A DNA stretch of 42,231 nucleotides from the NCBI GenBank assembly GCA_025353105.1, contig JANXRG010000102.1, forward strand, positions 1-42,231, read 5' to 3'. The notes under the pieces are model-generated. The model saw only the letters and a program-made list of their open reading frames with translations. It was not told the DNA's origin and made no database searches. The translations under genes were made by a program, and so were the position numbers. Source of the stretch: Verrucomicrobiota bacterium (GTDB lineage: Bacteria > Verrucomicrobiota > Verrucomicrobiia > Chthoniobacterales > SZAS-18). This document shows, piece after piece, positions 1-21,958 of this stretch. The number at the start of each line of letters is the position of its first letter. The stretch's first letter is position 1.

Positions 1-430
1 TCGTGGGCGGATGGAGGCTGTCGATGTCGTTGATCAACAACCGGTGCAGCGCGGTGAGCTGCACATCAAGGGCGGTCGGATTGTCGCCGATGCTTTGCGC
101 GCGCTGGAGCATGACGCCACAGGCGGTGGGATCGTTGGTCGGGGCAATCAGGCCGCGATACGTGAATGTGGCCGCGGAATCGGGCAGGCCATTCTTCTGG
201 TAGACGGCAAGCGTGCGCCCATTGAGAAGTCCGGGTGTGTTCTCGTTCAGCACCACGTAGGCCCAGGGGCGACCGGCGGAATCGAGCGTCGTGGTTGCCG
301 CCGACCGGATGAGCAGCGGAGACTGCTGCGCCTTGACGGGCGCGATGCCGGCCAGCCCCACGACGGCACAAAGGAGAAGCGCGCGCCAAGGCGTGCTGCG
401 GCCCGCCGAAAATGTGAGAGGCGTCGTCAC
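1..430 (-). CDS. Secreted protein of unknown function, C-terminal part outside window
   Basis: An open frame of 143 codons runs from a GTG at 430 to the left edge of the window with no stop, so the gene is 3'-truncated. The first 35 or so residues look like a signal peptide: a positive stretch (GRSTPWR), a hydrophobic core (ALLLCAVVGLAG) and a likely cleavage region near APVKAQ. The mature part begins with a beta-type stretch (TTTLDSAGRPWAYVVLNENT) followed by a helical segment with LTALHRLL. The GTG lies 4 nt after the stop of the giant gene upstream, so it is probably co-transcribed and translationally coupled; there is no Shine-Dalgarno. I do not recognise the family. An overlapping plus-strand frame (11-514) lacks any recognisable feature and is taken as a shadow. 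Confidence 0.7.
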   Translation of the reverse strand, partial: MTTPLTFSAGRSTPWRALLLCAVVGLAGIAPVKAQQSPLLIRSAATTTLDSAGRPWAYVVLNENTPGLLNGRTLAVYQKNGLPDSAATFTYRGLIAPTNDPTACGVMLQRAQSIGDNPTALDVQLTALHRLLINDIDSLHPPT

Positions 431-434
431 GGGT

Positions 435-3400
435 CTAGAATTTCAGCTTCTTCACGAGGAAACCGCCCGGGGGTGGCGGAAAAGGCGGCGCGAGGTAGGT
501 GCCGGTCGCCGTGAAATCGAATTCCTGACTGAGGCCCAACGCCTTGGCGGTGAATCTCCCCGTGATGACACCGGGAAAGGCCAACGGAATCGGAGCCGGG
601 AACAATGACTTGGCGATATCCGCAATGCCGTCGGTGCTCGCCAATGAAACGGGCCCAAGGCCGAGGCCGTTGAGCGTATGCAGGTCGACATCGACCGTCA
701 CACCAAAGATGCCGACGCCGATGCCAAGATCCCAACGCAGGCCGGGGGTCACGAAGGATCCTCCCGCCGCGGGAACTAGAAACGCAAAGTTACCCTGGCC
801 CCCGCGGGCCTGCAGTTTGACCACATCGTCGGGAATGGCCAGAATCCGGTTGAGCGACACGCCACCCAAGGCGTGGAAATAGAAACCGGTGACCGGATTC
901 AGGTAGCGGCCGGAGGGTACATCGATCGAGGTGTCAATCCCAAAGCCTTTCAGCAACGGATCGATCAGGGGGTCGACCTTCTTCAGGATCGCCGGGTCGG
1001 AAGTGCGTCCGACGAATGAACTCACGTCGACATCGAAAATCAGAATGCTGCCGGCGCCCTGCGCGTAGAGGTAGTTGTCGCCCTGGCCGAACGCGAAATC
1101 GAACTCCGCGTGCTTCAAATTGACGATGTCTAGATGGACATCCGAGTCCAACGAGAGCGAACCGGAGACAGCGAGTGGATCGCCCGTGCTGCTCATCGTG
1201 TACTGGCCCATGGCATGCGCGTGGACGGGCGGGCAGCCGGCGATCGAGGCGTTTCCATCGAGGGTCGTCGTGATCACGACCGCGCCATCCGGGATCCCGC
1301 CGACCGCGCAGGCGGGCACGGGCTGGCTGGCTTGATAATGCTGGTAATCGAGCGACCCGCGCAAGGTTAGCGGACCGCCGACATTCAAGGTGGCGATGGC
1401 TTCGACATGCGCGCGGTCAAGCACGTTGCCGATGACGCGCGCGGTGCCGTTGATGCGCGTGAGACGAAAGGCGTCGCTGAAACCGCCGATCGCCTTGTTG
1501 GCGTTGGCGACATTTTCATTCACCGCTTCGAGTACGGTGTTGGTCAGGTCGCTGAGCGCCGAGCGCACGACGTCGTTCAGGACGCCGTGAATCTGATGGA
1601 AGGCGTCGGTGTATTGATCACTCAACGGTTCGACCAGACCGCGCACGGTCGATTGCAGATCCGTGACAAAAGTTGACTGGTTGATGACCTCGTGGGCCGC
1701 GCGCTTGAGGTCGGCCTGCAGTTTTCCGGAGGCGGCCATTTCGACCACGTAGTTGCCGGTGGGATCGTACGCCTTCGCGAAATAGTCCTGCATCGCTCCC
1801 GCCACCTCGTTGGGCAGCGTGCCGCCCACGGCATTGACGGAGGTGAGCGCGCCCTGAATCAGACCCTGGATGGGCATGACGGACGCGCGCGCGTCCCTCA
1901 CGAGCGCATGCACGTCGTTCACCGCCCGTTGCAACTCGTCCAGGGTGGAGGCGAGCTGCACGTTGATGAGATTGTCGATTTGCATGTAAACCGGATCCCC
2001 GGGGCCGACGTCGAGCCCGCCCAGCGCGCTGCACAGCGACAGGGTGGAGAGGAGAAAGGCTCCGCGTTTGCCCATGCCGTCCTTGGCCAGGATCACGTCG
2101 GCCGCCGCCAGGCCGTCGTCGATTTTCCTTAGCGCATCGCTGATGTCCCTCATCACGGAGTTCGCGTCGGTGGCAACGCCGACAATGTTTTTTAATTGGA
2201 GTTGGAGGGCGTTGCTACCGTTGACGGGGACGGAAAGGTAGGCGCTGGCCGCGCTGGCCGACGGAGCGACCACCTTCAATTGATCCACCAGGAGGGTCAG
2301 GAAGACGTCGAGCGCGGCGTCCACGCCATTGGTGATGAGTTGATCACTCTGCCCGCTCAGCAGGAGATCAAAGGCATGGACCGCGGCGACGAGCTCGGCG
2401 CCGTGCGGTATCAGGCCGGTCAGCTTATTCGTCAACTCGCCCTCATCGGTGAGGAGTCCTGCGAGATTCACCCGGGGTAAGCCTTCAAATTGCAGACCGA
2501 AGCGAATGTCCGCTCCCGAGGGGACGAGCTGGCTGATCACGCGCTGGCTCTTGAAGACGAGAAACCGTTCCTCTTGGGGCGTGGTCGAGACGAAGCGCCG
2601 CAGCGCCGCATCCCACCTCAGCGGAAAATCAAAATTCACGACTCCGAGCCAGTTTTGCTTGGCGTGCGGATTGTAGGGAGTTGGCGAGAGAGGCGACGGC
2701 GGCAGCGCCGGGTCTTCATAATCAGTTAACAACACGCCCGGGGGAAAACCGCGGTTCTCCTGGTCAAACTTGGTGTTGCTGAAAAAATCATTGCCGGGCA
2801 CGCCCCAGCCCGACCGCACATTAGTGTCTCCGCCAGTCGCACGCGCCAGCACGTGAACTTTCAGGTCGCGGAAAAACGGCACGCTCACGGTTCCTGCGAA
2901 GGCGACGAAACCCAAATCGGGCGAACCTGGCCCGGCGTCGGTGAAATAGATGTCGGAGACGGGCTGGGCAGAGAAAGCGGGACGCGACGCGCTGAGCAGC
3001 GAACCGGTGCCGTGCAGACCAATCGTTTTCGGCGGCTTGAGCCGCGAACTCACGCCCGGAAAACCTTCGCTGGCGGCCACAAGATTCCCCCCGGGATAAA
3101 AACCGAGACCGCCCCGCAACGGTTCTTTCACCACGCCGGGGAGAAAGACCTCCGCGCCGAAGATGAGCGCCCACCTGCTCGCGTCGGCCGGCTTCTGCTG
3201 GAAATTCCCCGCCAGCGGATGAAATTGAGCGCGCCAGTAGGTCAGATTGTGCAGGAAGTTGTTGGGCAACGGGATGGTGATTGGGCCCAGCTCGCCCTTG
3301 TCTGTCAGCGTCAGGCGATCAAAGGGCTGTACAAATCCGGCGAGGGTGGGCCGCGCGCCCGGCACGCTGACACTCCCGGTGATTAGTGACTCGTGCACAA

Positions 3401-5912
3401 TATTGTCCAGGAACGAGAGCTGAAAATTGCTCAGCGAAAGCGCAAACCCATGCACGGTCAGCGCACCCGCTAGGCCGGCGAACGAGGAGGTCACCGCCTC
3501 ATGGATTCCACTCACGCCAGCGGGCCGCGCGTAGTACTTGCTCGTGCCGCGCAGTGCATACGGTCCGAGCGTCGCATCGCCAATTTCGCTTGTGGCGGTT
3601 TGCGCGCCGTCGCTGCCCACGCGGAAATTCAGCCCAGCATAGTCCGCGGCGCCAATCGCGTAGCTCGCATCGCCCGGACGCTCGACGTAGCTTGCGTCTC
3701 CCGGCTGGCCGGAGCCGGTCAGCAGCAGCTCACCCGGGCGATTGTCATCGAGCGTGGTGGCGAGCGCCCCGCGCAGCACGTGGCCCGGCAGGTGGGCGTC
3801 GGCGACCGAAAAATTGCCCGTGACGTCAGCAAAGGTGGCGTCAGCCCTGGCGCCCCAGCGCAGCGGCACCGGCACCGTCGTCCCTTCCGCGCGCAGTCCG
3901 CCATCGGCGGTGAAATTCCAGGTCGCCGCGGCGGGCGTGAATGTAAACGTGTCGTCCGGACCGACAAAGGCGGGCGGGATGGGCGCGGGCGGATTGGCCG
4001 GCGCGCCGGGCCAGCTGTGAAAGGCGACATCGGACGCGCCCGGCAGCGAGCTCTGCGTCAAATCGAGCGCGCCATCCTGCACGACGACCGCGCCCGTTTG
4101 TCCCCACGCGACATTCGTCCCCAGTGGAAAATGCGCGATGAAATTTCCGGAAACCAAATCCAGGTGCGCGGTCGTCAGGACGGCACGGCCCTGCGCGTCC
4201 GCGGTGATGACGATGTCTGCCCCCGCGGAACCGTCGACGAACTGGAAGTATCCCTCGTTCGACGGACGATCCGCGGCGGTGGGATCCGTTAGGGTCCCGC
4301 GGTTTAGAGAGAGCAGGCTCAATTCACCGCGGCGGACATAGCGGCTCCCGCTGCGCGCCAATCGAAAGGTGCCGGCATTGGGATCCCAGGTGATGCCCGA
4401 GCACTCGAAATAGACGGGCAAGTCGTCATGCACCACGTAAAGATGCGTCGCGTCAATCGTTGAGGGTAGGAATGCAACCGTCCCTCCCGTCGGTTGCAAA
4501 TTTCCATCAAGCGGCACGTTGTAGGCGAGGTAACTCCCCAGCAGTCGTCGAACGGTCGTGGCGTAGGTCACACCGAGGCCGGCGGGAAAATTGACGGTCA
4601 GGAAACTGGCGGTGGCGCCGGTAGGGCCGAGGATCACATTCTGACGTGAAAACGTCACGCCGTTGATCGAGCCCGTATCCGTCGGCGTCGGTGCGCCGAC
4701 GAACGCGCTTCCCATCGTGACCACGGCAGTGCCATCGATCTTCAACAGGACATTGAGGTCGCCGGCCCCGGTGACGATATACGACGGAAACGCAGACAGG
4801 ACCGCGCCGTCAGGCGCCAAATCAATGATCGTGTTCTCACCGACCATGGGCACGGTGCCCAAGGGCACGGGTTCGTTCGAAAGCGCGCCAATCGTGGCCG
4901 AGACGGCACCGAATAAAAGGGTGCCGTTGAAATGCAAAAGCCGCTGACCGCTCAAGGCGTTGGGGTCGGGCGTCGACTCGATATTGTCCGGCCCGGTATA
5001 CGACACCTTCACGGTCACCGTGTAGCTGTCGGTTGAATCAAGCTGCCCGGCCGGCTGCAGCATGAGCGTGTTGGACAGCGGAAGGCTCGCCGGGTTGCCG
5101 AGCGCGTCGTGATTCGGCAAAGGCACCGTGATGGTCGTGCGCGAATTGACCAGCGGAACATCGGCGAGCGTGGTCTCGGACCTAATTTGGGCGTCAAAAT
5201 TGACCTGGTAATTGTCGGTGGACACCGGACTGCCAAGCTGGTCGCGCCGGCCGATGATGCCCTGGACGTCGACCTGAAACGACTCGCGTCCAACGATCGT
5301 CGCCACCGCATAGGACCGGCTTACGGTCGGACTCTCCAGCCACACGGCCACCGCGTTGGACGCGGCCGAATCGACGACGTCAAAGCGATAGGTGTGATCC
5401 GTGGCAAAGCCCTGCGTCGTGAAAACGCCGGGGCTCGTCTGTTTATAGAGCTGCGTCCGCAGCGTGTAGGTCCCGCCGGTGTTCAGCCCGGCGGGAAAGA
5501 GCGTCTTCGGAATGGAACCTGTGAACACCTCGCGCGCAGGAAAGGTATGGGTGAAAGGCGTGGAGAAAACCTCCGGTCCGCTGACGCTCACCCCACCGCT
5601 GTCCCGTAACTGAAAACCCATGCGGTAGGTGGACGTCACGGTGCCCCCGAGGCCAGTGAGCTTAAAATCTCCGTTTACCGGCAGTGGATCGAGTGTCCCG
5701 TTCGTGCTGACCTCAATCCCGGTGTAATTCGTAATCGCGTTCGCCGTCGCGCCGCCAATTTGCGCGTGGACAAGGCGGGCGGAAAGCACTGCGACGAACA
5801 GGCCAAGCGTGAGGCCCGCCACCCGTCTGGTGCGGGTGCGGCCCTGCGTGACCACGGTCGGGATAGCTCGTCTCACATCCTTATTCTCCGGTTTTCGAAC
5901 GCGAAGTTTCAT
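435..5912 (-). CDS. Giant secreted or surface protein of unknown function (1825 aa)
   Basis: The start chosen is the ATG at 5912, because the protein then opens with a basic stretch (MKLRVRKPENKDVRR) and a long signal peptide whose core is VAGLTLGLFVAVLSARLVHA, cut before QIGG. An AAGG lies 4 nt upstream. The frame stays open a further 41 codons upstream but that part is Pro/Gly/Arg-rich and unconvincing. Residues of about 30-1150 are beta-rich and Ser/Thr/Gly-rich with few charged residues, like Ig-like or beta-helical surface proteins. Residues of about 1170-1480 switch to amphipathic helices (for example LDELQRAVNDVHALVRDA). The last 350 residues return to beta structure. Only a handful of Cys and no anchor motif are visible, so it may be periplasmic, secreted or outer-surface. 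It is the first gene of a unit with the GTG gene at 430, and it is divergent from the sigma/kinase pair. No function is assigned. Confidence 0.85.
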   Translation of the reverse strand: MKLRVRKPENKDVRRAIPTVVTQGRTRTRRVAGLTLGLFVAVLSARLVHAQIGGATANAITNYTGIEVSTNGTLDPLPVNGDFKLTGLGGTVTSTYRMGFQLRDSGGVSVSGPEVFSTPFTHTFPAREVFTGSIPKTLFPAGLNTGGTYTLRTQLYKQTSPGVFTTQGFATDHTYRFDVVDSAASNAVAVWLESPTVSRSYAVATIVGRESFQVDVQGIIGRRDQLGSPVSTDNYQVNFDAQIRSETTLADVPLVNSRTTITVPLPNHDALGNPASLPLSNTLMLQPAGQLDSTDSYTVTVKVSYTGPDNIESTPDPNALSGQRLLHFNGTLLFGAVSATIGALSNEPVPLGTVPMVGENTIIDLAPDGAVLSAFPSYIVTGAGDLNVLLKIDGTAVVTMGSAFVGAPTPTDTGSINGVTFSRQNVILGPTGATASFLTVNFPAGLGVTYATTVRRLLGSYLAYNVPLDGNLQPTGGTVAFLPSTIDATHLYVVHDDLPVYFECSGITWDPNAGTFRLARSGSRYVRRGELSLLSLNRGTLTDPTAADRPSNEGYFQFVDGSAGADIVITADAQGRAVLTTAHLDLVSGNFIAHFPLGTNVAWGQTGAVVVQDGALDLTQSSLPGASDVAFHSWPGAPANPPAPIPPAFVGPDDTFTFTPAAATWNFTADGGLRAEGTTVPVPLRWGARADATFADVTGNFSVADAHLPGHVLRGALATTLDDNRPGELLLTGSGQPGDASYVERPGDASYAIGAADYAGLNFRVGSDGAQTATSEIGDATLGPYALRGTSKYYARPAGVSGIHEAVTSSFAGLAGALTVHGFALSLSNFQLSFLDNIVHESLITGSVSVPGARPTLAGFVQPFDRLTLTDKGELGPITIPLPNNFLHNLTYWRAQFHPLAGNFQQKPADASRWALIFGAEVFLPGVVKEPLRGGLGFYPGGNLVAASEGFPGVSSRLKPPKTIGLHGTGSLLSASRPAFSAQPVSDIYFTDAGPGSPDLGFVAFAGTVSVPFFRDLKVHVLARATGGDTNVRSGWGVPGNDFFSNTKFDQENRGFPPGVLLTDYEDPALPPSPLSPTPYNPHAKQNWLGVVNFDFPLRWDAALRRFVSTTPQEERFLVFKSQRVISQLVPSGADIRFGLQFEGLPRVNLAGLLTDEGELTNKLTGLIPHGAELVAAVHAFDLLLSGQSDQLITNGVDAALDVFLTLLVDQLKVVAPSASAASAYLSVPVNGSNALQLQLKNIVGVATDANSVMRDISDALRKIDDGLAAADVILAKDGMGKRGAFLLSTLSLCSALGGLDVGPGDPVYMQIDNLINVQLASTLDELQRAVNDVHALVRDARASVMPIQGLIQGALTSVNAVGGTLPNEVAGAMQDYFAKAYDPTGNYVVEMAASGKLQADLKRAAHEVINQSTFVTDLQSTVRGLVEPLSDQYTDAFHQIHGVLNDVVRSALSDLTNTVLEAVNENVANANKAIGGFSDAFRLTRINGTARVIGNVLDRAHVEAIATLNVGGPLTLRGSLDYQHYQASQPVPACAVGGIPDGAVVITTTLDGNASIAGCPPVHAHAMGQYTMSSTGDPLAVSGSLSLDSDVHLDIVNLKHAEFDFAFGQGDNYLYAQGAGSILIFDVDVSSFVGRTSDPAILKKVDPLIDPLLKGFGIDTSIDVPSGRYLNPVTGFYFHALGGVSLNRILAIPDDVVKLQARGGQGNFAFLVPAAGGSFVTPGLRWDLGIGVGIFGVTVDVDLHTLNGLGLGPVSLASTDGIADIAKSLFPAPIPLAFPGVITGRFTAKALGLSQEFDFTATGTYLAPPFPPPPGGFLVKKLKF

Positions 5913-6165: not shown

Positions 6166-6921
6166 ATGGTCAGCGAAGGGGCATCAGCCAATTTCACGCA
6201 AGCGGGCTTTCACACCACGCAATGGAACCTGGTGCTCGCGTCCGTGCAGGGCGATGACGTGGCCGGGGCGGACGACGCGCTCGATGATCTTTGCCGCAGC
6301 TATTGGTCGCCGCTTTACGCATTCGCGCGAAGGCGCGGGAAATCGCCGCCCGACGCGCAGGATGCGGTGCAGGGATTCTTTTTGCATTTCATCGAAACGC
6401 GCGCGTTTGCGCGGGCGGACCCGCAGCGCGGGCGCTTCCGGGCGTTCCTGCTGGGATCGTTCATTCGCTACATGGCCGGTGAATGGCAGCGCAGCCACAC
6501 GCAAAAACGCGGTGGAAATCGCGAGATCGTATCGTTGGACATGAAATTGCTTGAAGCCCATGGGCTGCCGGAACTGACGACCGCGGCGACGCCCGAGCGC
6601 GCGTTCGAGGAGCGCTGGGCGCTGACCGTGGTGGAGCGGGCCATGGCCCAGCTCGCCGCCGACGCGGAGACGCGCGGCAAGAGCTCGGCTTTTTCTGCGG
6701 CGCGACCCTTCTTGACGGGCGAGGGACACGCCGAGTCCTACCAGCAGGCCGCGGCGGCGCTGGGGATGGGTACCGGGGCGTGGAAGACGTTGATTCATCG
6801 CCTGCGCCGCGAGTTCGGCACTTTGCTGCGGCGCGAGGTGGCTCGCACCCTCTCTGACCCCGCAGAAGTCGACTCCGAACTGCGGCATTTGCGCGGCGTC
6901 CTTGCCGAGATCCTGCCCTGA
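6166..6921 (+). CDS. ECF-type RNA polymerase sigma factor (PVC-type, kinase-associated)
   Basis: This 251-aa protein resembles the sigma factors common in Planctomycetes and Verrucomicrobia. The N-terminus carries the family's FHTTQWNLVL stretch (residues 15-24). A sigma region 2-like helical part (about 38-112) includes DAQDAVQGFFLHFIE. A region 4-like helix-turn-helix (about 150-225) includes SYQQAAAALGMGTGAWKTLIHRLRR as seen in the sequence, with the usual A-x-x-L-G core. The linker is longer than in classical ECF factors. Start ATG 6166 has no Shine-Dalgarno; TTAACT lies 9 nt upstream. The Ser/Thr kinase gene follows 131 bp downstream. By analogy with kinase-linked planctomycetal ECF factors, the kinase may control this sigma factor; that is inference. 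No anti-sigma gene is adjacent. Confidence 0.85.
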   Translation: MVSEGASANFTQAGFHTTQWNLVLASVQGDDVAGADDALDDLCRSYWSPLYAFARRRGKSPPDAQDAVQGFFLHFIETRAFARADPQRGRFRAFLLGSFIRYMAGEWQRSHTQKRGGNREIVSLDMKLLEAHGLPELTTAATPERAFEERWALTVVERAMAQLAADAETRGKSSAFSAARPFLTGEGHAESYQQAAAALGMGTGAWKTLIHRLRREFGTLLRREVARTLSDPAEVDSELRHLRGVLAEILP

Positions 6922-7052: not shown

Positions 7053-10000
7053 ATGAGTTCGTCCTCGAGCACACCGCCGGAGCCGCCGATCAAGAAGGAG
7101 TCGGCCGCCAGCCTGCTGGACATTGCCATCGAGGTTGGACCCGAGGCCGCGGTGGACGACGACGGGGCGTGGTGGGAAGATCCAGCGCGCGAGTCCGTCG
7201 GCCGGTTTGGCCGCTACGATCTGCTGGAGGAAATCGCGCGGGGCGGCATGGGGGTCGTCTATCGCGCGAGGCAGCGTGACGTGCTGCGCATCGTGGCGTT
7301 GAAAACCATCCTGCCGCACTTGCTGGGATCAAGTGGCATGAAAGAACGATTTCGCGCCGAGGCCGAGGCAGCGGCCAGCCTCGATCATCCGGCGGTGCTG
7401 CCAATCTACGAGGTCGGCGAGCGCGATGGCGCGCCTTACTTCAGCATGAAATTTGCCGAAGGCGGCAGTCTCGCGGCGGCCGCGAAGCCGATGCTCCCGC
7501 CGGCGGCGGCCCGGCTGATGGCCATCGTCGCGCGCGCTGTGCATCACGCGCACCTGCGCGGGATCCTGCATCGCGATCTCAAGCCCGGCAACATTTTGCT
7601 CGATGCGCAGGGCGAGCCCTTCGTGAGCGATTTCGGACTCGCGAAATGGCTGGAGCGGTCCAGCGATCTGACGCTCTCGCAGGCCGTGCTCGGCACGCCA
7701 AATTATCTCGCGCCGGAACAGGCCCGCGGCGGCTCGGCCGCGCTCACCACCGCCACCGACATCTACGCACTGGGAGCAGTGCTCTACGACTTGCTGGTCG
7801 GCCGGCCGCCCTTCGTTGGGGATTCTGTGGTCGAGACGCTGCGTCTTGTCGCCGAAAAATCACCGACTCGGCCATCCACGCTGAATCGCGCCATCCCGGC
7901 AGACCTCGAAACCATTTGCCTGAAATGCCTCGAGAAGGACCCGGCGGCGCGCTACGCCACGGCCGAGGCGCTCGCGATTGATCTCGAACGGTTCCTCGCC
8001 GGCCGTTCGATCCTCGCGCGACCAGCCAGCGCCCCGGTCCAGCTTGGTCGTTGGGCGCGGCGCAATCCCATGGCGGCGGGCCTCGCCGGCGCCCTGGCCC
8101 TCGCCCTCGTGGCAGTGAGCGTGATCTCCGTCATTGCGGCCGTGCGCATCGCGCGCTCGCGCGACCAGGCGGTGGCGGCGGAGAAGGAAGGCGCGATCAA
8201 ACTGCGCGATTCGTACATCGCCCAGGCGCGCGCCGCGCGGCGCACCGCGCGGGCGGGCCAGCGCCTCGACGCCCTCGCGGCGCTGCGCAAGGCCGCGGCG
8301 CTCGAACCCACCGCGGAGGCGCGCACCGAGGCGATTGCCGCGCTCGCGCTAGCGGATCTGCAGGTGGAAAAAACTCTCCCCTCGCGCAGCCGCGCCGCCT
8401 CGTCCGTGGCCTTCGATCCCGTCAATCAGCGCTACGCCGCGGAAACCGCGCCGGGTGAAATCACGATCCGCGGGCTGGAGGAAAAAAGCGCGCCGATCAC
8501 GCTGCCCGCCCCGGACGGCGCGGCGGCGGCGTGCTTCCTCACGCCGTTTGCCGGCGACGGCCGCTATCTCGCCGTGCGGCATCTGCCCGGTGATCGATTG
8601 CGCGTCTGGGATCTGAATGCGGCCACGCTGGTTTGCGAATTCACCGATCGACCCACCGGCGGAATCGATCCGACATTCGCGACCGATTGCGCGCTGCGCC
8701 CGGACGGACAGGTGCTGGCGCTGGGGCTGCCAGCCGGCGGCGTGAGCTTTCACGATCTGCGCGATCATGGCAGGGAAATCGGGCGGCTGGCCACGGGATC
8801 GGTGCCCTCCTTCCTCGCCTACGATCCCGCCGGTCAACGTCTCGCGGTGATTGGTCGCGACGCCAAGGACGTGCGGGTTTTCGATCTTGCAACCGGCCGG
8901 CAGGTGTCTGCGGTGCCCCACGGCGCTGTCGTGATCAGCGCCGACTTCAGCTCCGACGGGAAAACGCTGGCGAGCGGAGGGAAGGACGGATTGATTCATC
9001 TCTCCGATGCCGCGTCAGGTGCGCCCCGGCAGATTCTGCGCGGTCACCGCAACCGCATCTCCCAGGTTGTCTTCCAGCCCGGCGGGCTGCTGCTCGCCTC
9101 CACCGGCGAGGACAACACGATTCGGCTTTGGTCCGCGCGTGACGGCCGGCCGCTGGTCCATCTGCCCGCGCAAGGCCGCGAGCCGGTGCTGCGTTTCAGC
9201 GCGGATGGATCGCGCCTGTTCACCGGTTCGTACGCCACCGAGCCGCTGATCTTGCGGCTCCACGCGCCGGAAGCGTGGACGGTCCTGCACGCTCCGCCGC
9301 CCGATGCCGGCGAGGAATCATCGGTCATCGGCGCGCTCGATGTCTCGCCCGATGGAAAACTGCTCGCCGCCACGACCAATGCCGCCGTGCACGTGATCGA
9401 CGCGAATCGCGGCGGGGAGCTCGTGGCGATTGAGTTCGATGGCAGGGCACGCAAGACGGCGGCCTTTGATCCGCGCGGCGGCGCCCTTTTCGTGTCGAGC
9501 TTTACGACCGCGCTGATTCGCCGCGACTACAGGTGGGAGGAAGGAGGCGCGGCTGGAGAGCGCTTGAAGCTGGGCGACCCGGTGGTGCTGGACAAGGCGG
9601 AGGGATTCCTCCTCAGCGGCATTCGCGCCGACGGACGCGTGCTCGGATTGACCTCACCGCGCGGCAACCTGGTGCGACTGATCTCGCCGGAGTCGCCCGA
9701 AACTCCTGGCGTCGTGCTCAAGCCGGCGCCGGGCGCCCGGCAGGTCACGCTCAGCGCGGACGGGCTTTGGGCAATCACCAACACCGACGGTTTCAGTGGC
9801 GAAAAGGAGGTGGTGAAATTGTGGTCGGCCGGCTCCGGCGCATTGGTGCGTGACCTCGACGAATTGGGTGAAAGCGGCGTCGCTGCGCTTCGAACGGACA
9901 GCCACCAATTCTTCGCCAACGGAAATCGCGGCGGCGGACTCTTTGAACTTCCTTCTCTCAAGCCGGGACCGCCACTCAGCGGGGAGCCGGCCGACGAATG

Positions 10001-10253
10001 CGAATGGGCGGTCTACTCGCCGAAGGGAAACGTGCTTGCCATGCTCGCCGGCGACCGCATCCACCTGATCGACCCGTCCAGCGCGCGGGCGCTGGCAGTG
10101 TTGGAACCGCCGGACCCGCTGGATGGCCAAGCCACGCTCATGTTTTCCCCCGACGAAGAGTTCATTTTCGTCACGGCTTCAGACGGCACGGTCACGCGCT
10201 GGAACCTGCGCGCCCTGCACCGCGAGCTCGCGAACCTGGGGCTCGATTGGTAA
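7053..10253 (+). CDS. Membrane Ser/Thr protein kinase with C-terminal WD40 repeats
   Basis: A Hanks-type kinase domain spans about residues 55-320. It has the Gly loop [11 protein letters not shown] (62-72), the ATP-binding lysine K84 in VALK, the catalytic HRDLKPGN (173-180, Asp175), the DFG motif (193-195) and [10 protein letters not shown] in the activation segment (214-223). One transmembrane segment follows at about 341-365. The rest (about 370-1066) is an extracytoplasmic, WD40-like beta-propeller region with repeats such as [17 protein letters not shown] and [14 protein letters not shown]. The 1066-aa length and layout match PVC-group WD40 kinases. It directly follows the sigma gene, which suggests a sensor-kinase/sigma pair. 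The key catalytic residues are all present, so it should be active. Confidence 0.92.
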
Positions 10254-12686: not shown

Positions 12687-13355
12687 CTATTGCCGCAAAT
12701 ATATCACGCCGTTGTCGATGCGAACCTGCTTGACCCGCGCCAGGACCTCGCGCTGCGGAACGAGCGCATTGTAGATCCACGCGGAGCAGGCAAGCTCAAG
12801 GAGCTTGCGCCGGTCTTCCGACAGATTCTTCCCGCCGCTTGCGGCTTGCGAAATCGCGACGCGGGCGATGCCTTCGGTCAGACTCGGCGTCATGGTCGCC
12901 GAAAGATTGAGGTACCGGCCGGCAAAGCGCTCGGCCAGAAATGACACTTCACCGAGCGGAAGCGTGAAGGCAACTTCGGCGTGATCGCGCACGAGGCGCA
13001 GCTCGGCGCGGTCCGCCAGGGACGTCTTCGAGCGAAGCAGCGAGCGGAGATCGTCCTCCGTCAGATCAAAGACCGCCTCGTCCGCCGGCTTCGCCGCCGA
13101 GAAATCCCGCCAGCGCTTCTTGAAGAGGCGCATGTCGCCCTCGATCGAGAGCCGCGTCGGCTGAATCGCCGGCGTGGCATCCGTCAGGTCTCGAAGCTGC
13201 GTGATAAAACGGTCGCGGTACCAGGTGAAGCAAAACGTGCCGAGCGCGCCGAGCACGACCAGCAGAATCAGGCAGCGGGTGAACATCCCGAGCCGCGACT
13301 GCCGGAGAACGAATCGGCGGAGCGCGGGCGAGGCGACGGGGGCGGGAGCGCGCAT
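12687..13355 (-). CDS. Single-pass membrane protein of unknown function
   Basis: The 222-aa protein has a short basic N-terminus, a transmembrane helix at about 26-46 (CLILLVVLGALGTFCFTWY) and a soluble domain of about 175 residues, probably periplasmic. The soluble part contains alternating strands and helices (RLSIEGDMRLFKKRWRDF; AEVAFTLPLGEVSFLAERFA) and resembles lipid-binding-like or membrane-anchored hypothetical proteins, but I cannot name a family. It starts 3 nt after the stop of the DUF4388/RDD gene, so the two are surely one operon and may work together. Confidence 0.75.
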   Translation of the reverse strand: MRAPAPVASPALRRFVLRQSRLGMFTRCLILLVVLGALGTFCFTWYRDRFITQLRDLTDATPAIQPTRLSIEGDMRLFKKRWRDFSAAKPADEAVFDLTEDDLRSLLRSKTSLADRAELRLVRDHAEVAFTLPLGEVSFLAERFAGRYLNLSATMTPSLTEGIARVAISQAASGGKNLSEDRRKLLELACSAWIYNALVPQREVLARVKQVRIDNGVIYLRQ

Positions 13356-13358
13356 GGG

Positions 13359-14777
13359 TCAGGTTTCCATCACCCAGCGGATGACCCGCGTGCCGGCGAG
13401 GTAATCGTGCAGAGCCCGTCGTTCCGGGTTGAAGAACGCGACGAGAAATCCAAACGGAATGACCGAGCTGCACGCGCGCTTGAGTGCGGCGCCGAATCCG
13501 GCGCGTTCGTCGGTGTCCGCGGTGACGACGCGCAGGTGCAGGGCCCACTTGCCGGGCGTGGTGCCCCCGACCCAGACGAAGACCGTCCACCACACCAGCG
13601 CGCCGACAAACTCGGCGAGAAGAAAATTCGGGGCGAGAAAATAGCCGGGTTCAATCACACCCGTCTTCGCGAGGAGGATCCACGTGGACTTGGCGATGAT
13701 CACGTAAAGCAGCATATCGATGACCCAGGCTCCGAGTCGCCACGGCAGGCGCGCGACGGCCCGCCGCACGGCGCGGAAGTGCACACCGAGTTTCGGGAGA
13801 TTCCGGAAAAAATCGGGACGGCAGGCCTCGCAAATCCAGCGGTCCTGATAGTACATCATCTGCTCGCGAGAAAGAGTTTTCAGGCAGACGTGGCAGCGAG
13901 CGGTCCCGAGGGGATCGTCGGCCGGCCGTTTCCCGATTCGGCTGGTCGCGGCGCGTGGGCCCGGACGCGCCGCGTCGGCGAGGTCCGCGGCATGGACGTC
14001 CTCGTACGATGTCCACCGGCTCAGGCCCGGCCGCCAGATCATGCTCGCTGGCTGCATTTGTCCTGCGCTGATCCGGTGCAGGATCACCTCCTCCGCCACC
14101 GGACCAATCTCCTTGTCGCGGTCGAGATAAAACCATTTGGCCGGACCCACGGGTGAATCCGGCGGAGCCGGAATTTCCGACGTGGACCCCGCGGCGGGTC
14201 CGTCGATGTCGGCGGGGTCAGCCAGGTCCACCAGACCAAACTCCGCCAACTTGAGCAGGTAGAGCTGCACCTGGAGCACCGCCATCCCGGTGGACGCGGC
14301 GATTTCGTCGGCCGAGGCATCGCGCCGGAGCATGGCCGACGCCTGGCGCAGGAACCCGCGCAAATCACGATCGATTTCACCCACTTCAATCTGCGTGCGC
14401 CGAAATTTTCGCTCCGGGAGTGCAAACAGGTGGGTCGATCCGCGGATTTCGTCCGATCGCGAGACAACCTCCAGGACGATCGCGTCGAGCGAGAAATTGC
14501 ACAACTGCTCGAGCGACGGCGGAGGCACGGGGTGAAAGGCGAATTCGCCGGTGCGGCCCAGATTCACCAGCACCAGCTTGTCGACGACCTTCGAGAGGTC
14601 CGTGACGCGCGTGTGGTCGGGGCCGACGCGACACGCGCGCACCGATCCCTCCTGCAGGTCGAGTTCAAACTGCCCGAGGTTTGGCACCCGCGTAAAGACC
14701 AGCCGGCCCACGGAAAAGCGCACCGCGTTGACGACGTCGGTGAGTGGAAAATCGTGCAGGGCACCGGCTACAGGCAT
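13359..14777 (-). CDS. DUF4388 / GYF_2 / zinc-ribbon / RDD membrane fusion protein
   Basis: This 472-aa protein joins several modules. Residues 1-115 look like DUF4388, found in gliding and signalling proteins (the ALHDFPLTDVVNAVRFS opening is typical). Residues 135-190 form a helical, winged-helix-like segment. Residues 213-262 are a GYF_2-type domain (WFYLDRDKEIGPV to WTSYED). A CxxC pair (C295/C298 and C316/C319) makes a zinc ribbon. Residues 335-470 are an RDD domain with about three membrane helices and the TTPGKWALHLRV motif. The cytosolic modules may recruit partners to the membrane. The next gene starts 3 nt downstream. AATAAT lies 5 nt before the ATG, and a GGGAG 11 nt upstream could serve as a distant Shine-Dalgarno. 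Confidence 0.8.
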   Translation of the reverse strand: MPVAGALHDFPLTDVVNAVRFSVGRLVFTRVPNLGQFELDLQEGSVRACRVGPDHTRVTDLSKVVDKLVLVNLGRTGEFAFHPVPPPSLEQLCNFSLDAIVLEVVSRSDEIRGSTHLFALPERKFRRTQIEVGEIDRDLRGFLRQASAMLRRDASADEIAASTGMAVLQVQLYLLKLAEFGLVDLADPADIDGPAAGSTSEIPAPPDSPVGPAKWFYLDRDKEIGPVAEEVILHRISAGQMQPASMIWRPGLSRWTSYEDVHAADLADAARPGPRAATSRIGKRPADDPLGTARCHVCLKTLSREQMMYYQDRWICEACRPDFFRNLPKLGVHFRAVRRAVARLPWRLGAWVIDMLLYVIIAKSTWILLAKTGVIEPGYFLAPNFLLAEFVGALVWWTVFVWVGGTTPGKWALHLRVVTADTDERAGFGAALKRACSSVIPFGFLVAFFNPERRALHDYLAGTRVIRWVMET

Positions 14778-20794: not shown

Positions 20795-20822
20795 TTGCTT
20801 TTGCGCGACGGCTGGCTAAAAA
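20795..20822 (+). promoter_or_regulatory. Promoter candidate for the pilM operon
   Basis: TTGCTT (20795-20800) and TAAAAA (20817-20822) are spaced 16 bp apart in the 131-bp gap before pilM. It would give a leader of about 65-70 nt, ending in a C/T-rich tract. A second possible -10 (TATCAC) lies nearer the gene. Confidence 0.35.
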
Positions 20823-20896
20823 CCATTGGCATCGTCGCATCCGGCGGGTGTCACGGTTCTTGCTTATCACCATGTCGCTTCCCTTTTTCACCCCCA

Positions 20897-21958
20897 ATGG
20901 CAAAAGCGCTTAACTCCGCCGTCGGCATCGATCTCGGACAACACAACCTGAAGGGCGTGCTCTTGCAGCGCAAGAGTGGAAACCGCGTTCACCTCGCGGG
21001 TTACGCCATCCGGCAAACCGGGCCAGGCCCCATTCCGGGCGACAAGCTGGCGCATCACTTGAAGCTTCTCCTCCAGGAAATTGGGGGCACCGCGAAGGGC
21101 TATTCCGCCGCCGCCTCGAGTCCGAATGCCCTCGTCCGAATCATCGAGCAGCCACCCACCCCGCCGACGCTGCTCCGCGAGGCGTTGAAATTCAACGACA
21201 TGGTGCTTTTGAACCAGGACTGCAAAGAGTACGTCCTCGACTGCGACCTGCTCACGCAGCCGAAGAAGTCCGTGGCCGAGGGTGACGATGCCGCACCCGC
21301 TTCCGCGCCGAAGGCGCTGCGCTACCTCGTCGGTGGCCTGCCCCGGAGTGACGTGACGGAAATCTACGATGCCTTCGAGAAAAACCGGACGACGATCAGC
21401 CGGTTGCAACTCGCATCGCTGGCGACGTTCAACGCGTTTGAATTCGCCAAGCCCGACATCTTCGCGAACGAAGCGTTCATGCTCGTGGACATTGGCCACG
21501 CTGAAACCGTCGTCATGCTCGGGTGCAAGCGTGAGCTCGTCCTCGTGCGCACGATCGACTACGGCGGCCGCCACTTCATCGAGGCGATCTCCGGTGATGG
21601 TGCGATTGATTTGGCCGCGGCGATCACGCTGGTCGAGAAAGGCGATCCGGGTCTGAACGAAGTCGGGCGCGCCTCGCTCATGACGCTGGCGCACCAGCTG
21701 CGCAGCTCGATTGGATTCTTTGAAGGCCAGCGGGAGGAAAACATTGCCCGCGTGCATTTTTCCGGCGCGCTGGTGCGGGCGGATCTCCCGCTGCAGATTT
21801 TGAGCGACGAACTTGATATTCCCTGCGAGCTCTGGGATCCGTTTGAAAAGTGTGAAATCTCCCTGCCCCGAAACAAACGCGCTGGCTTCCACATCGACCA
21901 GCACCAACTGAACGTCGCCTGCGGCGCCGCCATTGAACTGCTGCGCGGTGGCATCTGA
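20897..21958 (+). CDS. pilM: PilM-like actin-fold ATPase, type IV pilus/secretion assembly
   Basis: PilM is a cytoplasmic actin-like protein that binds ATP and the N-terminus of PilN. This 353-aa protein has the phosphate-1 motif AVGIDLGQHNLKGV near the N-terminus and the phosphate-2-like MLVDIGHAETVVML in the middle, followed by TIDYGGRHFIEAI. ATG 20897 is chosen, as the open frame upstream (from 20795) lies in the leader region and shows no conservation-type sequence. The genes for PilN-, PilO- and PilP-like proteins follow on the same strand. The initiator lies after a C/T-rich stretch with no Shine-Dalgarno. Confidence 0.88.
   Translation: MAKALNSAVGIDLGQHNLKGVLLQRKSGNRVHLAGYAIRQTGPGPIPGDKLAHHLKLLLQEIGGTAKGYSAAASSPNALVRIIEQPPTPPTLLREALKFNDMVLLNQDCKEYVLDCDLLTQPKKSVAEGDDAAPASAPKALRYLVGGLPRSDVTEIYDAFEKNRTTISRLQLASLATFNAFEFAKPDIFANEAFMLVDIGHAETVVMLGCKRELVLVRTIDYGGRHFIEAISGDGAIDLAAAITLVEKGDPGLNEVGRASLMTLAHQLRSSIGFFEGQREENIARVHFSGALVRADLPLQILSDELDIPCELWDPFEKCEISLPRNKRAGFHIDQHQLNVACGAAIELLRGGI

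Follow-up and report, generated by a model that had tools for sequence, protein, structure and literature searches.

The window analysed here is a whole contig of 42,231 bp (JANXRG010000102.1, assembly GCA_025353105.1) from a Verrucomicrobiota bacterium of the Chthoniobacterales (SZAS-18), and it carries at one end the beginning of a cassette of three genes for exported proteins whose functional linkage is strongly supported. The first gene encodes a giant protein and the second its partner, while the third is known from relatives. The 1,825-residue frame reported in the original prediction, which was made from the letters alone, is present and intact on the minus strand, running from an ATG at 5912 to a stop at 437–435, and the partner begins with a GTG at 430, four nucleotides (434–431) past that stop, as had been described. 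The partner frame is cut at 143 amino acids because the contig ends there. The two genes and their predicted parts are as follows.

435..5912, minus strand: giant secreted protein, first cassette gene, 1825 amino acids, with intact homologues
5763..5912, minus strand: predicted signal peptide of the giant, residues 1–50, ending VHA/Q (crude score 3.0; putative cleavage site)
3996..5762, minus strand: N-terminal part of the giant, residues 51–639, variable in giant alignment A1, with a sub-threshold Ig-like match
2481..3995, minus strand: predicted beta-rich core of the giant, residues 640–1144 (residues 1–505 of the AlphaFold model)
1470..2468, minus strand: predicted helical insert of the giant, residues 1149–1481, several long amphipathic helices, mostly at a predicted local distance difference test (pLDDT) of 40–70
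438..1469, minus strand: predicted C-terminal long antiparallel strands of the giant, residues 1482–1825, the last third of low confidence in the model
2..430, minus strand: partner gene, first 143 amino acids, GTG start, predicted signal peptide at residues 1–34, cut by the contig end

By its sequence, the giant is a member of an unnamed family. Its best Pfam match, Big_5, stays below the cut-off (14.4 bits against 23.6; residues 232–303, E 0.066), the NCBIfam scan gave zero matches, and a phmmer search of the PDB gave no credible match (best E 1.4), in agreement with the earlier statement that no domain could be named. The Rfam search also returned zero matches. The frame is not a chance product, because full-length relatives whose frames are intact are found throughout the phylum. 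As a single query, the giant found relatives in 5 of 57 near genomes and, among the 387 genomes of the phylum, in 23, its own genome included in both counts, with one of the matches (G400) at E 4.4e-4 only. The N-terminus of the window partner (430–2) is recognised by the partner profile (E 4.3e-32) and found 13 loci by tblastn at E<1e-4; full-length partners in relatives have 1050–1320 amino acids.

The gene order of the cassette was followed in two sets of loci (numbered with L, and genomes with G), namely 32 giant neighbourhoods from the phylum genomes (set 1) and 32 loci reached via named genomes (set 2), with at least seven loci common to both. All set-2 loci are titled Verrucomicrobiota and include Pedosphaera, Pontiellaceae, Kiritimatiellales, Coraliomargarita, Prosthecobacter, Haloferula luteola, Luteolibacter marinus, Opitutales and others. 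Since set 2 was obtained from an alignment of seven relatives with one peptide pattern only, it says little about absence from other phyla; the giant alone, scanned against genome contigs, found no relative, and none of the 21 stretches that fit peptide patterns was confirmed. In set 1, 30 of 32 loci have a partner close to the giant; L051, where the giant reaches the end of its contig, and L067 do not. In 28 loci the partner follows immediately downstream of the giant (median gap 34.5 nucleotides, n=28). In L053 a 2137-residue frame stands between the two genes, and in L010, from the genus of the window, the partner lies beyond a sigma factor gene and a kinase gene and points away. In set 2, the partner is found in 31 of 32 loci, and the remaining locus (L097) ends inside the giant. 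The cassette can be multi-copy, and the phylum searches scored at most two candidates per genome, so that the copy numbers are minimum values. In six loci (L013, L014, L015, L057, L060 and L061), a small DUF1573 protein is encoded divergently just upstream of the giant.

A third exported protein of about 650–1330 amino acids is encoded downstream of the partner in 24 loci of set 1 and 25 loci of set 2 (32 loci in each set), with a median gap of 18 nucleotides to the partner (n=23) and an overlap of 4 nucleotides at 4 of the 23 junctions. The original prediction of a two-component system thus stood for the giant and partner as a conserved unit and had to be widened to three secreted genes, the third usually following the partner. 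The set-1 loci without it are L010, L012, L014, L051, L052, L053, L054 and L067; for L053 and L054 it is present outside the retrieved stretch or on a different contig (genomes G370 and G104). Of the seven set-2 loci that lack it, six run out at or within the partner or the giant, and the seventh (L102) has a short match of 58 bits at its end. Among 15 third proteins, Pfam gives matches to TSP3_bac in 10 and to FG-GAP_3 in 9; the third protein of L045, a relative, reaches 36.0 bits for TSP3_bac (cut-off 25) and 26.0 bits for FG-GAP_3 (cut-off 26.9). The NCBIfam models Amuc_1099, MtsD and CglD were rejected, their matches lying below the curated cut-offs in the member shown and being confined to the TSP3 repeats. 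The protein resembles the secreted FG-GAP/TSP3 proteins of the MtsD and Amuc_1099 families in its above-threshold TSP3 and its FG-GAP-like repeats, but differs from them in those sub-threshold scores and in being cassette-bound when full length, except in G260. In four related loci (L056, L057, L060 and L061), the third gene is followed by a gene that may encode a Na/Pi cotransporter-like protein.

Several lines of evidence indicate that the three genes are inherited together. The giant and partner profiles (31 and 24 rows) were run on the same 387 phylum genomes, many of the matched genomes having supplied rows, and at E<=1e-10 both match an identical list of 22 genomes that includes the window genome. 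The chance of identical lists would be about 10^-35.6 if two such sets were drawn independently, a figure to be read in view of the relatedness of the genomes, the 22 of which fall in 14 genera. Looking for the pair in other Verrucomicrobiota, as the original prediction had proposed, therefore revealed a conserved unit; neither a match of the giant to a known family nor an absence of the pair from relatives was found. The third profile matches 142 of the 387 genomes at E<=1e-10, most of those listed through one short TSP3 stretch, so only long matches were counted; these (best E below 1e-80 each) occur in 21 of the 22 genomes and are lacking only from the genome of the window, which is truncated. 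There, the contig ends inside the partner, the own genome gives weak third-profile matches of 17–48 bits and none of cassette strength, and the other contigs of the source assembly yielded neither the remainder of the partner nor a third gene of full length. Among 38 loci (43 before removal of identical giants), pairwise distances correlate at r = 0.908 for giant and partner, 0.856 for giant and third protein and 0.908 for partner and third protein, values reached by 0 of 2000 permutations, which in part reflect shared species history and have no unlinked-gene baseline. Row L072 was excluded from the set-2 giant alignment and L072, L074, L076 and L081 from the partner alignment, where L097 has no partner; the downstream open reading frames of L051 and L053 were left out of the partner query set.

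The three could instead be unrelated secreted proteins held together only by shared transcription or mobile history, as all three carry signal-peptide-like N-termini and the cassette has a scattered distribution (22 of 387 genomes) as well as being potentially multi-copy. However, the genome sets are identical and the divergence is matched, and both halves are kept where the cassette is rearranged (L010 and L053) or split, as in G291, where the giant is alone on one long contig and the partner and third gene are on another. Nor were giant relatives found in plasmids or viral contigs, or partner relatives in phages. We therefore regard this explanation as improbable and a functional linkage of the three genes as very likely.

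The cassette products are probably exported, and their location at the cell surface is likely, as suggested by signal peptides, paired cysteines and domain types. Signal-peptide-like N-termini were recognised on all three proteins by a crude score of our own for charge and h-region, which picked start codons favouring a signal peptide and thus leans towards positive calls. The window giant and partner score 3.0 and 3.1, consistent with the signal peptides first assigned to them, and nine sigma factor and kinase open reading frames used as controls score 0.04–2.48, with one of the nine above 2. In giant alignment A1, which holds the window giant and 30 of the 32 set-1 giants (L051 and L061 were excluded for broken frames), ten columns are cysteine in 17 to 30 of the 31 members. 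Three pairs of these columns are both present in 26, 30 and 28 members, both absent in 5, 1 and 3, and never discordant, and the terminal CPxC pair is present in 26, absent in 4 and discordant in 1. The loss of a pair in L060 is nested within relatives that keep it (L056 and L057). Because the cysteines are lost in matched pairs, they probably form disulfides of an exported protein. The window giant itself lacks all ten family cysteines, the corresponding sites being residues 637, 643, 871, 1534, 1638, 1734, 1773 and 1776 and two alignment gaps.

The giant is predicted to combine a beta core, a helical insert and a C-terminal sheet of long strands. AlphaFold was run on residues 640–1825 with 30 relatives (mean pLDDT 67.9, predicted template modelling score (pTM) 0.50), and the model shows a beta core at 640–1144, about 330 residues of helices at 1149–1481 and strands at 1482–1805, 16 of them, each of 11–16 residues. 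The amphipathic helical middle of about 300 residues anticipated from the letters is thus reproduced, at low confidence, as is the beta C-terminus; the beta-rich N-terminal half is borne out for residues 640–1144, within the part that the model covers. Matches of the helical part to apolipoproteins, spike HR1, ZorA, Cry6Aa and chemoreceptors in PDB profile searches, and to LeoA, ZorA and JetC in PADLOC, were rejected as generic amphipathic helices. The top four PDB matches of the model in Foldseek are ApoB100 twice (E 9.6e-6 and 8.2e-5), lipovitellin and vitellogenin, with TM-scores of 0.04–0.11 (0.11/0.04 for the ApoB100 match of best E), followed by BtuB and porins, all at TM-scores of at most 0.15 against the query. 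In a second structural comparison, ApoB100 VIA (Z 13.5, root-mean-square deviation 6.4 Å over 235 residues) is tied with OprD-type porins (Z 12.4–13.4, 256–279 residues, 8.7–10.6 Å). In most of the ApoB and porin alignments, strands from both sides of the helices (the last ones before them and those that follow) are aligned together, as would be expected of helices inserted into one sheet. Because of this tie, and because strand alternation is non-discriminating, we term the C-terminus of the giant an amphipathic long-strand sheet.

These matches bear on two other explanations of the giant. It may be a secreted carrier of lipids or other hydrophobic compounds, in which the helical insert and beta belt form an ApoB- or vitellogenin-like body and the FN3-like partner and propeller-like third protein a dock. 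The giant shares with ApoB100 and vitellogenin its size, secretion, predicted helical part and predicted amphipathic beta belt, these proteins have the best Foldseek E-values and ApoB100 a Z of 13.5, a PDB profile search found apolipoprotein-type helices, and Pfam gave PF01442 at E 0.00093 in one of seven members. However, long amphipathic sheets and helices match generically and the TM-scores are very low; the giant is bacterial, has two partner genes, and shows no Vitellogenin_N among the Pfam results at E up to 10, nor do seven relatives at E up to 0.1. A carrier function is consequently quite unlikely. The alternative of an autotransporter-like protein, in which the C-terminal strands would form an outer-membrane barrel, with the helices as linker or plug and everything else as a passenger bringing the FN3 and propeller proteins to the outside, deserves more weight, though we consider it unlikely as well. 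Like OprD-type porins and autotransporters (type V secretion), the giant has a predicted signal peptide, predicted long antiparallel C-terminal strands preceded by a helical segment and often an aromatic last residue (44 of 57 giants of more than 1500 amino acids end in Y, F, L or W), and BtuB and porins recur in Foldseek beside the OprD-type alignments. However, ApoB scores equally, the deviations are large and the TM-scores low. The family has ten conserved cysteines, which are unusual for a barrel, and strands before and after the helices share one sheet in the model, an arrangement that is not known from any classic autotransporter. Unlike porins and autotransporters, moreover, the giant has its helices inside the sheet, paired cysteines and no sequence family match (no autotransporter Pfam family for the giant at E up to 10 or for seven relatives at E up to 0.1), and closure of its strands into a barrel is only a possibility.

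The partner is predicted to be a rod of FN3-like domains. Its fold was modelled from the relative in L071, not from the 143 residues of the window (AlphaFold pLDDT 79.3, pTM 0.45), and consists in the model of a mixed alpha/beta N-terminal domain followed by a chain of beta sandwiches. The best PDB matches of this model are FN3 arrays, with residues 373–499 fitting an FN3 domain of the IL-12 receptor (Z 11.0, 2.9 Å, 94 residues); the Pfam fn3 match is weak in the partners. The predicted tandem sandwiches resemble bacterial FN3-array surface proteins, from which the partner differs in its weak Pfam fn3 signal (seen in 3 of 24 members and no better than E 0.015), its mixed alpha/beta N-terminus and its constant company of the giant in the genomes searched. 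The partner and the third protein are thus built of known domain types, and the giant family is unnamed.

Divergent from the giant in the window lie two genes for probable regulators, the first encoding a sigma factor of the extracytoplasmic function (ECF) type.

6166..6921, plus strand: ECF-type sigma factor, divergent from the giant, probable regulator (Sigma70_r2, 27.3 bits against a cut-off of 24)
7053..10253, plus strand: Ser/Thr protein kinase with WD40 repeats, 1066 amino acids, probable regulator (Pkinase, E 7.7e-44; WD40)

A sigma factor or kinase of this kind is an immediate neighbour of the cassette in 6 of 33 loci (set 1 and the window) from three genera, namely the window, L010 of the same genus, L049 and L050 of one genome, and L059 and L066 of one genus; L092 of set 2 has a sigma factor gene nearby. 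Chance alone would give about 0.3 such loci; six have a probability of about 1e-6 when the loci are treated as independent, and of about 0.005 when they are reduced to three lineages. Each of six genomes has 5 to 27 sigma factor genes of this kind, so that each gene may serve its own target; five of the six (the own genome included) had been selected for showing the link. A promoter scan of the intergenic region between the giant and the sigma factor gene found nothing above chance. One study describes a Hanks-type kinase of Xanthomonas citri that activates its ECF partner and thereby turns on a type VI secretion system acting against amoebae, and states that the DxxD motif in region 2.2 is typically missing from ECF43 members (PMC13147305). 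The window pair is like the ECF43 systems with Hanks-type kinases (EcfP-PknT and EcfK-PknS) in setting an ECF sigma factor beside a Ser/Thr kinase near genes for exported proteins, whereas its kinase has WD40 repeats and its sigma factor retains DxxD (DAQD in DAQDAVQ). Because of this motif, the phosphorylation switch of ECF43 is not to be assumed.

The kinase-controlled system against amoebae (PMC13147305) also suggests that the cassette could be a multi-part toxin or antagonism system against competitors or predators, and the long helical bundle of the giant weakly matches pore-forming toxins. However, the helical matches are generic, the Pfam and NCBIfam scans contain no toxin domain, and clustering of the neighbours revealed no recurrent immunity-like gene beside the cassette. 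Pfam scans of the giant, partner and third proteins found no TcA/TcB/TcC or Rhs domains. We consider a toxin role very improbable.

We propose that the three exported proteins work as a single extracytoplasmic complex, most likely at the cell surface. The giant would be its anchor and scaffold, with its helical insert and its C-terminal sheet of long strands placed at or within the outer membrane and its N-terminal beta domains facing outward. From it, the partner would extend as an FN3-like rod or spacer, and the FG-GAP/TSP3 protein, probably a calcium-binding propeller, may serve as the tip or docking piece. The likely role would be adhesion to a surface or surface coating, and in the three genera where they adjoin the cassette, the ECF sigma factor and Ser/Thr kinase probably turn it on upon an outside signal. 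As a whole, this account appears to us about evenly poised between right and wrong. A bolder version is rather improbable, in which the giant would be a lipid-embedded, disulfide-braced beta belt with an inserted helical domain, either a bacterial counterpart of lipid carriers such as ApoB and vitellogenin or a new outer-membrane anchor, forming with the FN3 rod and calcium propeller a surface organelle specific to Verrucomicrobiota with its own ECF sigma-kinase switch.

Several observations weigh against the proposed surface complex. Two loci (L012 and L067) have no adjacent third gene, and genome G260 has a relative of the third gene (L104, G260:C125) without giant and partner; the distance correlations, as said, partly follow species history. 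The giant model is of modest quality, and in it a membrane barrel and another amphipathic sheet are indistinguishable; strand alternation is 0.80 in the C-terminal domain and 0.74 in the core used as control; anchoring in the membrane by the C-terminal sheet is suggested by the model at most. The six loci with a sigma factor or kinase come from three genera only and most loci have no such neighbour; regulation by the pair is at most probable. The adhesion role is read from domain types only, and the physical complex of the three proteins is what we infer from their linkage. The idea of an undescribed envelope or surface system is therefore upheld in part: a description of the cassette was not found in the open-licence PMC literature (subscription journals may differ) and the surface is likely, while surface location and mutual binding are only inferred.

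Huge secreted proteins are easily left as hypothetical, and this giant is one third of a strictly co-inherited cassette. As cultured hosts carry the cassette (Haloferula luteola, Luteolibacter marinus and Coraliomargarita), its function is testable, and the sigma-kinase neighbour offers a testable switch. If the surface complex is real, it would give a handle on how these bacteria build and use their cell surface.

Elsewhere in the window, a gene for a PilM-like protein (20795–21958; PilM_2, E 1.8e-10) precedes two short co-directional frames, with which it may form a pilus-type operon. Two frames overlap on opposite strands (12981–14156, plus; 13359–14777, minus), with Pfam domains (RDD and GYF_2) only on the minus frame, an example of the long shadow open reading frames that are common in this DNA.

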